Translations under genes and position numbers: made by a program
Notes under the pieces: generated by a model
Seen by the model: the letters and a program-made list of their open reading frames with translations, nothing else
What the model was told of the DNA's origin: nothing
Databases searched by the model: none
NCBI GenBank assembly: GCA_030432565.1
Contig: JAUIGV010000006.1
Span: 124,001 to 188,000 of the forward strand
Reading direction: 5' to 3'
Source: Verrucomicrobiia bacterium
GTDB lineage: Bacteria > Verrucomicrobiota > Verrucomicrobiia > Verrucomicrobiales > Akkermansiaceae
Length of the DNA: 64,000 nt
Part shown: positions 7,149 through 41,226 of the stretch, piece after piece
Position numbering within the stretch: the stretch's first letter is position 1
Layout of the letters: every line of letters begins with the position of its first letter

Positions 7149-8072
7149 ATGAAACCAGTCGATGCACCTGAGAAGAAAAACCGGGGACGTTTTTCTCGCA
7201 AACATCGGGTGTTGGTTGTCGGGTTTCTCGTTGTGGCAGGACTCGTGGGAGTGGTGGTTTTCGCGTTGTCACTTTGGTTGACGGGTCGGCGGGATGCCTA
7301 TGATGCGGTTGACCTTGATCATGTCTTCAACTGTGTGACGCGTGCAAATTCGAGCTACCACGAGCCCCATATCATTAGGAACGAGTTTGGCTCCCACGTC
7401 GAAATTTGTGACTTTCCAGTCAGCGGAGTACGCGTCTTTATAGAAAGCAAGCCCGGTGAAGACAGCCAACAGTGGATCGTCCTGCGGGGCACTGAGAATC
7501 TGGCGAATGTCATTGCGGATCTGAAATTCGTTGAACGGGAGGACCACGAGCTCGGGGTCCGGATTCACCGCGGTTTCGACGATGCCACACGCGAGTGTCT
7601 TCCATGGGTGATTGAAAAAATCGATCGCAGCCGGCCAATCTGCCTGACCGGACATAGCCTTGGAGGGTCGATGGCGATAATTATGGCTGCAATCCTCGAC
7701 GGTCGTGGTTATGAGGAAGTCTCAGTCGTGACCTTTGGGCAACCCAAAATTACCGACTTCGAGGGAGCTGAATCGCTCAAGCACCTTGATATACTGCGGG
7801 TTGTCTTTGAAAGTGACCCGATCCCTCTGCTACCTCCTGTCTTGGTTCCAGATCAAAGCCTGGACACCTATCACCACTTTGGACCAGAAATTGTCCTCCA
7901 GGAAGACGGTCATTTCTTTTATCTCAATGAACACGACACCGAGCGTCTCAACGTCATGGATTTTTGGTCGAGGCTCACGCGAGCCCAGCCCAAGAACCAC
8001 ATTCTCGGAAACAGTTACATACCCTCCCTCCGGATGGCGATGGAGAGATTCGGTCAGACCCCGGCCGAGTGA
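7149..8072 (+). CDS. Membrane-anchored class 3 lipase family protein
   Basis: About 307 residues. A positively charged N-terminus is followed by one transmembrane segment (about residues 18-40), then an alpha/beta hydrolase domain of the fungal lipase class 3 type. The nucleophile elbow is TGHSLGGSMA, preceded by the oxyanion-region stretch VLRGTEN and followed by VTFGQPK and an Asp in ESDPIPLLP, as usual for the family; a late His occurs in YHHFGPE. The active site would face the periplasm. The ATG at 7149 is preferred over an upstream frame start at 7047, because it places the signal anchor near the N-terminus. Substrate unknown. Confidence 0.75.
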   Translation: MKPVDAPEKKNRGRFSRKHRVLVVGFLVVAGLVGVVVFALSLWLTGRRDAYDAVDLDHVFNCVTRANSSYHEPHIIRNEFGSHVEICDFPVSGVRVFIESKPGEDSQQWIVLRGTENLANVIADLKFVEREDHELGVRIHRGFDDATRECLPWVIEKIDRSRPICLTGHSLGGSMAIIMAAILDGRGYEEVSVVTFGQPKITDFEGAESLKHLDILRVVFESDPIPLLPPVLVPDQSLDTYHHFGPEIVLQEDGHFFYLNEHDTERLNVMDFWSRLTRAQPKNHILGNSYIPSLRMAMERFGQTPAE

Positions 8073-8149
8073 TGGGAAGAGTCCCGACATGATCGAGCCG
8101 AAGGTCATCCAGAATGAATGCGGCTATCGATGACTAAGGCCGGGGTGAC

Positions 8150-9445
8150 TCAGTCTGTCCCAGCGTCTTCGATCAAAACACCGGCGTGATCCATGCGTTC
8201 GCGTAGCGAATCCGCGAGGGGACTGTCGCTAAGGCTTTCTCCGGATTGAAACGAGAAGCGGATCAGTCCCAAGAAATAGTCGCTGATGATGATCTTGAAG
8301 ATGAGGATGCTTCCGCCGAGTTTGCAGAGGAAGTGCAGGACGCTGGCGGCATCGGCATCTGGATGATTGGAGAGAATCCATGCTGCGCCGGCGATGGCGA
8401 TCCCGTAGCAACTGAGCACCTTAAGTTTCATCGATTCGAGCAATTCCGAGGCCTCACTCAGTGAAGCCGGGCGAATCAGACTGGTCACCTTGGCAAGAAT
8501 CAGGAGAGGGGCGATGGTGAGGGCTCCGAACATGATTACGGACGGGGTGTTACCGATCTGCACCGCCAGGATCAGGGCAATCAGGAAGAAGAGTGCATTA
8601 AACGGGGCAATGATGAGAGCGATCCAACCCGAAAGCGAAGACTCGGGGATGATGGACTTCATGATGATGGCGGAGCGCAGGAAGGCCGGGAAGATCGAGA
8701 TCACCAAGGGGACCAGACTGATTGTATAATAGAGCCCGGCATAGCCGGCCCACCCGAGAGATTCCACTTGATAATGTGTCTGGACAAACCAGCGGCCTGG
8801 AACCAGCCCCATCGCGAAAGGAAGAAGGAAGGCGGGTATTAGCGTTAGTCGACCGAGCAATCGCGAGCGCTGATAGTTCTTCCAGGAAAGAAAGGACATG
8901 GTGACCAGGATGGCTGTTCCAATCGGGAGAATGATGCCGGCTGCATTGGTGAAGTGTATAAAAGCGGGAACATCCGGATCGGCTACCATCCGCATGGAAT
9001 GTGGAAACCCAAAAATCGAAGAGAGCACGATCAGAAAGGCTCCCGTCATTAAGACGGTCCGGCGCCATACGAGAAAGCCGCCCATTGTCGGATCGTCCCT
9101 AAGGGCCGCAAACTCGCTGAGTTGGAGCCGTTCGGAGTCGGTGATTTGCAAGCCTTGGAGATTACTTGAGAAGACACGCACCGTCAGGGCCGGCAAAGCG
9201 CGTCCGACGGAGCGCACCCGGCCGGGACGGGGTGAGCCGGAATGCCTGCCATTTCCATTGCCCGGGAGGTATTTCCGGAAGGGGCTGTCCTCCAGCGCCA
9301 TCCACTCTGAGGATTTCTCTAAGGCGACCCTGGTCGTCCTGCCGAGTTGGCCCTTCTCGATCAAAGCAACCAGTTCGCTGCTGGAGACCGGGTCGGACCG
9401 TTCACCAGGGGTGCTTTCGTAATGCCAGAATTGCTCGGGATTCAT
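8150..9445 (-). CDS. Polytopic membrane protein with N-terminal GYF_2 (DUF4339) domain
   Basis: A 431-residue protein. Residues about 1-60 (FWHYESTPGER, then a tryptophan near residue 48) look like the GYF_2/DUF4339 domain, a small peptide-binding-like module common in PVC bacteria. After a basic linker rich in Gly and Arg there are about eight hydrophobic segments between residues 135 and 405. No enzymatic motif is visible. It follows the aldo/keto reductase and SDR genes on the same strand with a gap of 64 bases. Function unknown. Confidence 0.65.
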   Translation of the reverse strand: MNPEQFWHYESTPGERSDPVSSSELVALIEKGQLGRTTRVALEKSSEWMALEDSPFRKYLPGNGNGRHSGSPRPGRVRSVGRALPALTVRVFSSNLQGLQITDSERLQLSEFAALRDDPTMGGFLVWRRTVLMTGAFLIVLSSIFGFPHSMRMVADPDVPAFIHFTNAAGIILPIGTAILVTMSFLSWKNYQRSRLLGRLTLIPAFLLPFAMGLVPGRWFVQTHYQVESLGWAGYAGLYYTISLVPLVISIFPAFLRSAIIMKSIIPESSLSGWIALIIAPFNALFFLIALILAVQIGNTPSVIMFGALTIAPLLILAKVTSLIRPASLSEASELLESMKLKVLSCYGIAIAGAAWILSNHPDADAASVLHFLCKLGGSILIFKIIISDYFLGLIRFSFQSGESLSDSPLADSLRERMDHAGVLIEDAGTD

Positions 9446-38479: not shown

Positions 38480-39043
38480 ATGCCCTCACCCCTCGATCAA
38501 CAAAACAACAGCGGAAGGAATCTTCACGATGAAGAGGTGGTTCGGCTGCTGACGGAGCATCAAAACCTCCTTTTGTCCTTCATCAGGGGATCGGTGGCGG
38601 ATCTCTCCACGGCCAAGGATCTGCTTCAGGAGGTGAATACCACCATATGGCGGAAGTCAGCCGAGTTTGAGAGTGGTTCAAATTTCAAGGCCTGGGCCTG
38701 CCGCATTGCCAGGTTCCGCGTCCTGTCGTCATTTCGCGACCGCCAGCGCGACATTCTTGTTTATGACGATGACTACCTCGAAACTTGTTCGGACGAAGCC
38801 GTGGAGTTGAGTGATCAATGGGTCCGGGAGGACCGGCTGGAAGCATTGGAAGGTTGCCTTGAAAAACTGCCTGAGGCGCAAAGAGAGATGATTTCTAAAC
38901 GATACAAATCGCAGGAAAGCATCGGAGCACTCGCCGGCTCCCTGCAGCGCTCGAAGAGTGCGATTAAAATGACCCTCCTCCGGGCAAGACGCGCCTTGCT
39001 CGAGTGCATTGAAGAAAAAACCAAAAGCCCGCCCCAATCATGA
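38480..39043 (+). CDS. ECF-type RNA polymerase sigma factor
   Basis: A 187-residue sigma-70 factor of the group seen in Rhodopirellula and Verrucomicrobium. Region 2 includes LLLSFIRGSVADLSTAKDLLQEV (cut: AKDLLQEVNTTIW) and FKAWACRIARFRVLSSFRD; region 4 includes LEKLPEAQREMISKRY and SIGALAGSLQRSKSAIKMTLL with the helix-turn-helix. Its stop overlaps the next ATG (ATGA), so it is made together with the anti-sigma-like protein that should control it. Probable targets are the envelope or its own operon, but no promoter repeat was found. Confidence 0.92.
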   Translation: MPSPLDQQNNSGRNLHDEEVVRLLTEHQNLLLSFIRGSVADLSTAKDLLQEVNTTIWRKSAEFESGSNFKAWACRIARFRVLSSFRDRQRDILVYDDDYLETCSDEAVELSDQWVREDRLEALEGCLEKLPEAQREMISKRYKSQESIGALAGSLQRSKSAIKMTLLRARRALLECIEEKTKSPPQS

Positions 39044-41226
39044 AGAAACGAGATGATCTGAACTCCCCCGGGGGAGATGAATTTTTTCGATTGGCCAATG
39101 ATTGGCTGGAAAACGATCTCTCCGGAGAGGATCGGGACAAACTCCGCGATCTGCTGAAATCCGATGAGCATTTCCGCAGGGCTTTTCAGGAAATCATTCA
39201 TCTGGATACGGCTTCGCGCGCTCTCCTCGCGGATCACGAAGGTCTCGGGATCGGTTTGCGTGGCCTTGAAGAAAAGAAGGATCCGGAGGTGAATGTTGTT
39301 CAGTGGAAACGAAGGGGGTGGATCGGCGCTGCGGCCGCTTCAATCGCAGCTGTTGGAGGAATCGCCCTTTGGAAACAATCGCGTATCGGAGCAACGGGGG
39401 GAGAAAGCATGGCGTTGCTTGATCCTCGATGGTCAATGCAGGCTGCCAGCGGGGCCGTCTATGAAATCCTTTCGCCGGGGCACGTCAAATTGATCAGTGG
39501 AGAGCTCACTTTTGATTCTTCCGAAGCCGCCGAGCTCCTGGTGGAAACACCCTTCGCCAAGGCTGTGGCCCGGGGTAGCAAATTTCTCATTGGTCATCAT
39601 GGGCCGGTCAAATCTCAAAACAAAAACACAGAAGAAAACGAAAAAATGAAACGACATACCTTTACCAGAATGCTGGTCCTTGCCGGAGCGGTGACCTTGA
39701 CCAACAGTCGGGGAAAAGCAGAAGCGGTGAAAAATGAAGCGGTGATCGCCGAGGCGGACAAAGCTCCCGTAAAACTCGCGGTGGAAGCGAATTCAACTTT
39801 TGCCTTTGAGTGCTATGCCCGCCTGGCGGAAGAGAATGCGGGGAAAAACATCTTCTTCTCCCCCTATTCTATTAGCAATGCACTCCTGATGGCGGCGGAA
39901 GGAGCCCGGGGTGAAACGGCAGTGGAAATGGGTGATGTTCTGGGTCTTCCTTCCGGCTTGCGAAGGGTCGGGGAAGCCGGTCAGCAGATCCCCTGGGAGA
40001 TGGGGGTGATTCACACCGGCCATGCCCGGCTTGGGGGGCTCTTCAATGCCTCGACTCCCGAGCAGGTGGAATTACGGAAAAAAGAAATCGAATTGAGCCG
40101 CAAACTGGACCTGGTGAAGTCCAAGACGAGGAAGGCCGAGGAAGAGGCGCGGGGTTCGGGCAAGCGATTCATCTCTCCGTTTTTGCGGGAAGAATTTGAG
40201 CTGGTCCGTGATTTGAATGCGATTCGTAAGAAGATCGATGGCGTGACACTCAAGGTCGCCAACGCCTTGTGGGGCGAGCAGAGCAAGTCCTTTAAGGAAG
40301 CCTGGCAAAAGACGGTGAAAGAGTCCTACGGGGCGGGCGCGATCCAGCAGGCTGATTTCATCAGGAATTCTGAAATCGAACGGCAACGAATCAATGCCTG
40401 GGTGTCAGAGCAGACCGAGGGGCGTATTGCGGGTCTCATTCCTGAAGGAGGAGTGCATGAGCTCACCCGCCTGGTCATTACCAATGCGATCTACTTCAAA
40501 GGAGAATGGGCCGCCCCCTTCAATCTTGATGACACGAGCCCGAAGGAATTCAACCTTGCTAACGGAGCGCAGGTTGAAGTTCCACTCATGAAAAAGGTGC
40601 ATAACAAGGGGGCAAGGTATGCCGCCTTCAACGGCGACGGAACTCTCTTTGAAACCCCACTCAAGGTTCCCCGGCAAGGCGAACAACCTCAAACCTATCC
40701 GGGGGAGGACGGCTTCGCTCTCGTGGAGCTTCCGTACCAGGGTGGGGAGACCTCGATGGTGATTATCGCTCCTAACGACGCGGCGAACCTCGCTGGGCTT
40801 GAAGCCAGCCTGTCTCCCGGTAACCTCACAAAGTGGCTCTCGGCCTTGCAGAAACGCAAGACCCGGATCGAGATCCCAAAGTTTCAGTTCAAAGCAGCCT
40901 ACAACCTCAATGACACGCTTGCCGCGATAGGCATGCCGACGGCGTTTGACCAGGGAAAGGCCGACTTCTCCGGAATCGCCGAAAAAGACGGTGCCGGTCT
41001 GTTCATCGGCGAGGTGATCCACCAGGCCTTTATCGAAGTGAACGAGGCGGGAACCGAGGCTGCGGCCGCGACTTCACTCGGCATTGATTCCAGATCGCTC
41101 CCGCAAAAGATGGTGACCTTCATTCCCACCTTCAGAGCAGACCGGCCCTTCATTTACTTGATTCGTGATCAGAAGAGCGGAGCAATCCTTTTCCTCGGCC
41201 GGGTTTGCAATCCGAATGCCATCTAG
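39040..41226 (+). CDS. Anti-sigma/FecR-like membrane protein fused to an inhibitory serpin
   Basis: 728 residues in one uninterrupted frame. Residues 1-60: cytoplasmic part with DWLENDLSGEDRDKLRDLL typical of anti-sigma partners of this ECF group; 93-111: one membrane segment; about 120-190: a shortened FecR-like beta domain. From Met203 the sequence looks like the start of an ordinary exported serpin (209-221 hydrophobic). Residues 240-728 are a complete serpin: IFFSPYSISNALLM, VITNAIYFKGEW, hinge NEAGTEAAAAT and the end RPFIYLIRDQKSGAILFLGRV. Counting from hinge Glu669 (P17) puts P1 at Arg685 and P1' at Ser686, the specificity expected for trypsin-like proteases. A coiled-coil-like insert spans about 335-400. 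An independent start at 39646 is possible. Confidence 0.85.
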   Translation: MKKRDDLNSPGGDEFFRLANDWLENDLSGEDRDKLRDLLKSDEHFRRAFQEIIHLDTASRALLADHEGLGIGLRGLEEKKDPEVNVVQWKRRGWIGAAAASIAAVGGIALWKQSRIGATGGESMALLDPRWSMQAASGAVYEILSPGHVKLISGELTFDSSEAAELLVETPFAKAVARGSKFLIGHHGPVKSQNKNTEENEKMKRHTFTRMLVLAGAVTLTNSRGKAEAVKNEAVIAEADKAPVKLAVEANSTFAFECYARLAEENAGKNIFFSPYSISNALLMAAEGARGETAVEMGDVLGLPSGLRRVGEAGQQIPWEMGVIHTGHARLGGLFNASTPEQVELRKKEIELSRKLDLVKSKTRKAEEEARGSGKRFISPFLREEFELVRDLNAIRKKIDGVTLKVANALWGEQSKSFKEAWQKTVKESYGAGAIQQADFIRNSEIERQRINAWVSEQTEGRIAGLIPEGGVHELTRLVITNAIYFKGEWAAPFNLDDTSPKEFNLANGAQVEVPLMKKVHNKGARYAAFNGDGTLFETPLKVPRQGEQPQTYPGEDGFALVELPYQGGETSMVIIAPNDAANLAGLEASLSPGNLTKWLSALQKRKTRIEIPKFQFKAAYNLNDTLAAIGMPTAFDQGKADFSGIAEKDGAGLFIGEVIHQAFIEVNEAGTEAAAATSLGIDSRSLPQKMVTFIPTFRADRPFIYLIRDQKSGAILFLGRVCNPNAI

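Follow-up and report, generated by a model that had tools for sequence, protein, structure and literature searches.

Why should a complete bacterial serpin be encoded in one frame with an anti-sigma factor, and how many products does that frame make? The question is raised by positions 38,480 to 41,226 of the window, by which we mean the whole 64,000-nucleotide stretch analysed (contig JAUIGV010000006.1, positions 124,001 to 188,000), from a 5.9 Mb genome assembly of a Verrucomicrobiia bacterium. The gene of an extracytoplasmic function (ECF) sigma factor, whose product passes the NCBIfam model TIGR02989 (145 bits, cutoff 124.55), is overlapped at its stop, as ATGA (39040 versus 39043), by the start of a frame of 728 amino acids. 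The fusion, its conservation, the sigma overlap and a conserved in-frame start with its signals are directly visible in the sequence. Judged from these and from structure models, the one frame probably gives two products, a membrane-bound anti-sigma/serpin protein and a secreted serpin. The parts of the locus are as follows.

38480..39043, + strand: ECF sigma factor gene, 187 amino acids, Rhodopirellula/Verrucomicrobium family (TIGR02989)
39040..41226, + strand: fused frame of anti-sigma, membrane helix, FecR and serpin, 728 amino acids (open reading frame; homologous loci, n = 23)
39040..39243, + strand: putative cytoplasmic anti-sigma part, residues 1-68, with helices 10-23, 29-41 and 43-68 (AlphaFold2)
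39316..39378, + strand: predicted single membrane helix, about residues 93-113 (model helix 100-113, low confidence; sequence and AlphaFold2)
39433..39600, + strand: first strands of the FecR domain, residues 132-187 (Pfam and AlphaFold2)
39601..39660, + strand: loop within FecR, residues 188-207 (191-204 under a predicted local distance difference test score, pLDDT, of 50), DNA A-rich (AlphaFold2 and sequence)
39646..39648, + strand: in-frame internal start codon ATG, Met203, proposed start of the second, secreted product
39646..39726, + strand: signal-peptide-like segment MKRHTFTRMLVLAGAVTLTNSRGKAEA; from residue 208 on it forms FecR strands of the long product
39661..39774, + strand: last strands of the FecR domain, residues 208-245, running directly into serpin helix A (AlphaFold2)
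39784..41214, + strand: serpin domain, residues 249-725 (Pfam, 342 bits; solved serpins in Foldseek)
39967..40239, + strand: serpin insertion, about residues 310-400, mostly helical (alignment and AlphaFold2)
41044..41109, + strand: reactive loop, from P17 E669 to residue 690, with P1-P1' R685-S686 at 41092-41097 (residue counting)

An AlphaFold2 model of the window protein, made from a 17-sequence alignment (mean pLDDT 77, predicted template modelling score 0.65), places in order helices within residues 5-68, a low-confidence helix at 100-113, strands at 132-187, a loop at 191-204 (pLDDT below 50), strands at 208-245 and serpin helix A from 246. Residues 1-68 are assigned as anti-sigma by position and resemblance, and gene order and helices suggest that they would bind the sigma factor; a Pfam scan found no named anti-sigma domain in the 728-residue protein, and two relatives with a DUF3160 domain, described below (L227 and L228), pass zf-HC2. 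The FecR match (PF04773) of the window protein is weak, covering residues 148-186 with 15.9 bits for the whole protein and 18.3 for the front part (cutoff 24). Five homologous fusions (with neighbours) pass that cutoff, namely G024a (29.2), G051 (26.6), G137 (25.2), G101 (24.4) and G191 (24.2); G306 (21.3), KOff (23) and G101 as a whole protein (21.8) fall below it. A sequence-only reading of this DNA had described the ATGA overlap of the sigma gene with one frame of anti-sigma helices, membrane helix, FecR-type domain and complete serpin, and the open reading frames and Pfam bear this out. It had called the FecR part short; in the model the strands restart past the loop and extend to residue 245. 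The internal start at residue 203 (ATG 39646-39648), the signal-peptide-like segment and the promoter-like element of relatives were not part of it.

The serpin match (PF00079) covers residues 249-725 and profile positions 1-370 of 370, with 342.1 bits against a gathering threshold of 27. All 50 Foldseek matches listed are serpins or serpin-like, including the bacterial chloropin 8gxv (template modelling score 0.89 by target length), and there is no FecR fold match among these 50. Of the fused relatives shown, all but L143 and L072 share the helical insertion at about 310-400. As the sequence-only reading held, the hinge NEAGTEAAAAT, at residues 668-678, is canonical: EAGTEAAAA at 669-677 fits the P17-P9 inhibitory rule E-x-G-T-E-A-A-A-A. 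Serpin reactive bonds are located by counting from P17 to P1, and the count from P17 = E669 gives P1 = R685 and P1' = S686, reproducing the bond Arg685-Ser686 proposed there. Residues 675-691 of the reactive loop are disordered in the model. The hinge fits that of inhibitory serpins and inhibition is predicted; most homologues shown keep it, and it is less canonical in G191, G024a, G101 and G854a. Arg-Ser at P1-P1' is found in the window protein and is different in the relatives shown, so Arg-Ser was rejected as a family trait. The targets would therefore differ, and the trypsin-like target that had been suggested from the window alone cannot be generalised.

The same fusion was sought in Verrucomicrobiota and Planctomycetota. 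The window protein, searched against 58 related genomes, found fused relatives, and in all 23 loci were collected from the two phyla, 21 with the serpin in view and two (G767b and G395b) counted though cut at contig ends before it. Loci that were broken or cut by contig ends had been dropped before counting (L039/L146 from G327, with broken frames; L022/L029; L213; the first frame of L214; L208). One of these, L208 (G395:C78), was considered as a natural short form and rejected, as it starts at a contig end. Wherever the serpin can be seen (21 loci), it shares an open frame with the anti-sigma part, with no stop between the two. In 15 of 16 loci the spacing of sigma gene and fusion falls between an overlap of 8 bases and a gap of 4 bases, and 6 of 7 later loci have spacings in the same range (within 8 bases); sigma frames appear broken or split in Planct49, UBA4655 and G395b. 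Occurrence in 23 loci of two phyla rules out a sequencing error or a lost stop, and the alternative of genes always separate and joined here by error fails.

The fusion is rare, as few matches were found across the sampled genomes. An alignment search found it in 9 of 386 genomes of the order (G000, G021, G024 with two, G051, G078, G101, G137, G191 and G306), G024 being of the same genus as the window genome. In a sample of 387 Verrucomicrobiota only the window genome matched at E 1e-9. A scan of named genomes gave the planctomycete fusions L062 (Blastopirellula sp. NAT61), L063, L064, L069, L072 and L074. When the front part was the query, 5 of 396 genomes from the order to which L064 belongs had strong matches, and a search of 392 genomes from the same phylum yielded two loci in G854 and also G829, in addition to the L064 locus itself. 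In L063 (about 7950-9126) the frame continues several hundred residues beyond the serpin, leucine-rich-repeat-like, to the end of the stretch retrieved. A serpin-domain tree intermingles fused and separate serpins; its 20 fused rows need 7 changes of fused state, at least 6 of them forced by well-supported branches, and a single origin of the fusion is not supported by it. Two serpins that are not fused, L002 (G000:C34) and L015 (G021:C4), branch among fused ones; that of L015 has what looks like a normal signal peptide.

The second product is proposed to begin inside the FecR loop. An in-frame start is found in all 16 loci of the first set (15 ATG, one GTG), 4 to 9 codons upstream of the motif [TS]R-x-x-(V/I)-L-(A/S/T)-G, and an internal ATG or GTG is present in 22 of the 23 loci overall. 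A Shine-Dalgarno match of 5 or 6 bases precedes it in 6 of 6 first-set planctomycete loci; of the 99 remaining in-frame ATGs in these frames, only 2 have one. Of 17 planctomycete loci (13 with serpin, 4 with DUF3160), 15 have a match of at least 4 bases and 13 of at least 5, the two without being those of G854. By crude counts, Shine-Dalgarno-like matches precede 45% of first and 20% of internal ATGs in the planctomycete loci, and 22% versus 23% (window) and 13% versus 24% (other loci) in the verrucomicrobial ones, which suggests that the Verrucomicrobiota genomes here rarely use this signal. Starts in the window are marked instead by weak RNA structure and A-rich leaders, first ATGs lying at the 68th low-structure percentile and internal ATGs at the 42nd. 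At the internal start, the verrucomicrobial loci are rich in A and have little structure. RNA there ranks at the 82nd to 99th percentile of codon positions for low structure in 16 of 16 fusions. ATG 39646 alone among 11 ATGs tested in the window frame reaches the 95th percentile on both measures, structure and A; about one of 190 internal ATGs in the window (0.5%) does so, in a set that includes ATG 39646 itself.

These signals are also seen at the synonymous level. When synonymous codons were re-drawn with the amino acids fixed and the p values per locus combined by Fisher's method, codons at the internal start favoured A (combined p 4e-9) and low structure (1.5e-5), values too small as given since some of the 16 rows are near relatives; 232 other internal ATGs show no such bias. 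In the G051/G078 pair, dN/dS is 0.25 before the loop, 1.16 in the loop, 0.33 after the start and 0.11 in the serpin. The loop residues are therefore free and both its ends constrained, and by these ratios the front part (0.25) and the serpin (0.11) are both under purifying selection. What the relatives keep is a start codon together with initiation signals.

The residues after the internal start follow the pattern MK..TR-LVLAG-V.., net positive and then at least 10 uncharged, hydrophobic residues. A simple rule, devised after viewing the sequences and distinct from SignalP, predicts a signal peptide at every one of the 16 internal starts and in 79 of 95 separate serpins, and at 2 of the 226 internal Met residues elsewhere. 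Eight of 9 later evaluable loci pass it (serpin 4 of 5, DUF3160 4 of 4), G854a failing. Among 41 FecR-like frames, the five fused to a serpin have such a start and none of the 36 others does; this comparison replaced one of charged residues, whose 13 comparators included the G306 fusion itself and a spurious frame, L156. The same residues are modelled as FecR strands in the window protein and in the planctomycete L064, and in the DUF3160 relative L227 the FecR match (29.6 bits, residues 139-214) spans the internal start at 199. An internal signal peptide without FecR identity was rejected on the strands in the two models and the profile across the start. From sequence and model together we strongly infer a second product and its export.

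The leader segment recurs in other contexts. G518, a single 7.1 Mb contig, has a HEAT-repeat gene (L210, 6555-9257) immediately downstream of the anti-sigma/serpin gene; the HEAT-repeat gene opens with a duplicate of the FecR end, the ribosome site, the start and MLRSLARMFVLSGLVTLTMGLVAPLHA-APP, an obvious signal peptide. Two further units stand behind the G306 fusion (L140, 6644-9434). The second is a serpin frame that begins in the copied loop, with the embedded start as its sole usable one. Its identity with the first copy takes in the 48 bases upstream of the internal start and the 1596 bases from there on, so it could be a recent copy or an artefact of assembly; it is kept as a hint of a short gene and was rejected as proof. 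The third joins the same leader segment to a fervidolysin-prodomain-like protein, a possible second protease inhibitor. Four genomes (G905, G1020, G1031 and G836) have this front end, embedded start included, attached to DUF3160 and not to a serpin, which suggests a wider class. L225, L227 and L228 match DUF3160 at 524-612 bits and pass FecR, and L226 is assigned by likeness. Each of these loci has an ECF sigma gene and a zf-HC2/FecR-like anti-sigma frame joined to DUF3160, with embedded start and signal-peptide-like segment:

L225, 1647-4715
L226, 2363-5491
L227, 2020-5052
L228, 950-4171

Is the operon controlled by its own sigma factor? The sequence TGTCAAC-N15-GCAAACT is found exactly upstream of the sigma gene in G024 (C117), G101, G137, G191 and G306, and this promoter-like element lies at:

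L026, 9810
L140, 3971
L141, 6518 (- strand)
L142, 2631 (- strand)
L143, 4422

When 13 genomes were searched, the element occurred exactly once in each of the five assemblies, at this operon, and once in G518, at another place. Partial versions are present in G078, the other G024 operon and L064. As the element stands just before the sigma gene, self-control is suggested in these relatives. The operon may thus control itself in the five-genome subgroup, whose sigma factor and anti-sigma front differ from those of the window. A regulon was sought by one-mismatch matches to the element, which were no commoner than in a reversed control. In the near relative G003 (L011, 930-1640), a sigma remnant 90% identical to the window gene has two in-frame stops and is a pseudogene, and about 2.07 kb of the fusion (window 39126-41198) is deleted between the same permease and sulfatase genes. 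By this comparison the sigma gene and the fusion have been lost together.

On balance we favour, as somewhat better than even, a stress module of two genes, probably under its own control, whose fused frame supplies both sensor and effector, a protease being sensed through the serpin. The long product would be a single-pass membrane anti-sigma factor, its cytoplasmic helices holding the ECF sigma factor and its outer part a FecR domain bearing the serpin. Translation from the second start in the FecR loop (ATG 39646) would give a shorter product; the residues at its beginning, which form FecR strands in the long product, would act as a signal peptide so that a free serpin is exported. A protease would meet the free serpin first and, once this is spent, would attack the membrane-held copy; the shape change or the trapped protease would disturb the FecR part and release the sigma factor, which would turn the operon up and yield more of both forms. 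The release step draws on general knowledge of serpins and FecR systems, and we infer only by analogy that protease attack is sensed through the serpin and passed across the membrane. A further-reaching version is put forward more tentatively, as one we would not bet on: a transmembrane receptor with a serpin as its sensor, the irreversible trap being the signalling switch; the same frame, from a second start within FecR, making a secreted inhibitor; about 25 residues serving as receptor beta strands in one product and as signal peptide in the other; and the DUF3160 relatives pointing to a general plan of anti-sigma sensor and exported effector in one frame.

Besides the non-independent rows behind the combined p values and the signal-peptide rule made after the fact, several points weigh against the two-product module. 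All support is sequence and predicted structure, and the membrane part of the model is of low confidence. A Shine-Dalgarno match of at least 4 bases precedes the internal start in 0 of 10 verrucomicrobial loci. Single loci reach p < 0.05 in 7 of 16 cases for A count and 4 of 16 for structure. G854a is fused and has no internal start. The exact element is absent from the other seven of the 13 genomes, the window genome included, and only one of the two G024 fusion operons carries it.

Of the other explanations, the strongest is that both products are made while the FecR part senses something else, such as a partner protein or envelope stress, the serpins being output only; we regard this as a serious possibility, short of probable. 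FecR-type anti-sigma factors elsewhere respond to partner proteins and are cut by membrane proteases, and the same embedded start is found where DUF3160 takes the place of the serpin, so serpins are no fixed companion of the front end. Against it, the model has no linker between the last FecR strand and serpin helix A, and the serpin recurs as the joined domain. Less likely, and in our view improbable, is that only the long product is made, a membrane-tethered inhibitor and anti-sigma factor, with the internal ATG a relic of an exported serpin gene fused to a FecR gene. The lack of a Shine-Dalgarno sequence at the embedded start in Verrucomicrobiota would fit this, as would the repeated joins or losses implied by the serpin tree and the fusion kept without the start in G854a. 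A relic should fade, however, and the loop drifts, yet the start is kept in nearly all loci of two phyla, its ribosome signals showing selection on synonymous codons, and in G854a the signal-like character has vanished along with the start. Very improbable is a useful short serpin behind a fading anti-sigma gene read through by accident: an open frame is by itself no proof that the long protein is used, but none of the 21 loci that show the serpin has a dividing stop, the front part is under purifying selection, the sigma overlap is kept and five relatives have the promoter-like element.

Parts of the two-product module are familiar. Outer carbohydrate-binding domains are carried by RsgI-type anti-sigma factors, which share with the window protein an outer domain related to the regulated product; here a suicide inhibitor takes that place, and a soluble effector would come from the same gene as well. 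Bacterial serpins such as chloropin (8gxv) have the same fold and inhibitory hinge, whereas the window serpin has a helical insertion and is joined to a membrane anti-sigma factor and not a separate exported protein. Pairs of ECF sigma and FecR-type anti-sigma factors (E. coli FecI-FecR; the accessible part of PMC7406223) share the adjacent sigma gene, cytoplasmic helices, one membrane helix and outer FecR domain; in the window protein the outer part continues into a serpin, and a loop containing an embedded start interrupts FecR, which is not so in the 36 other FecR-like frames. Genes with internal starts found by Ribo-RET and N-terminomics likewise have one frame, two start sites and an N-terminally shortened second form, as far as the accessible parts of PMC11005335 and PMC13245402 go; in the present case the choice of start would decide whether the protein is held in the membrane or exported, and one segment would have two structural uses. 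No such serpin/anti-sigma system was found in the open-licence literature on serpins with anti-sigma or sigma factors, Planctomycetes, Verrucomicrobia, bacterial serpins and internal initiation, an absence that is no proof, and a word search of the accessible text of a serpin phylogeny (PMC8233489) finds no mention of sigma, fusion or these phyla.

Automatic gene finding yields one protein here and would hide a second. If the two-product module is true, this would be a bacterial protease alarm with a single domain as both bait and weapon, one frame yielding it in two forms. A serpin would be used as a receptor, and one peptide would either fold as a core strand or act as a signal peptide, depending on the product. 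It would also explain how inhibitors against foreign proteases are regulated in free-living Planctomycetota and Verrucomicrobiota.

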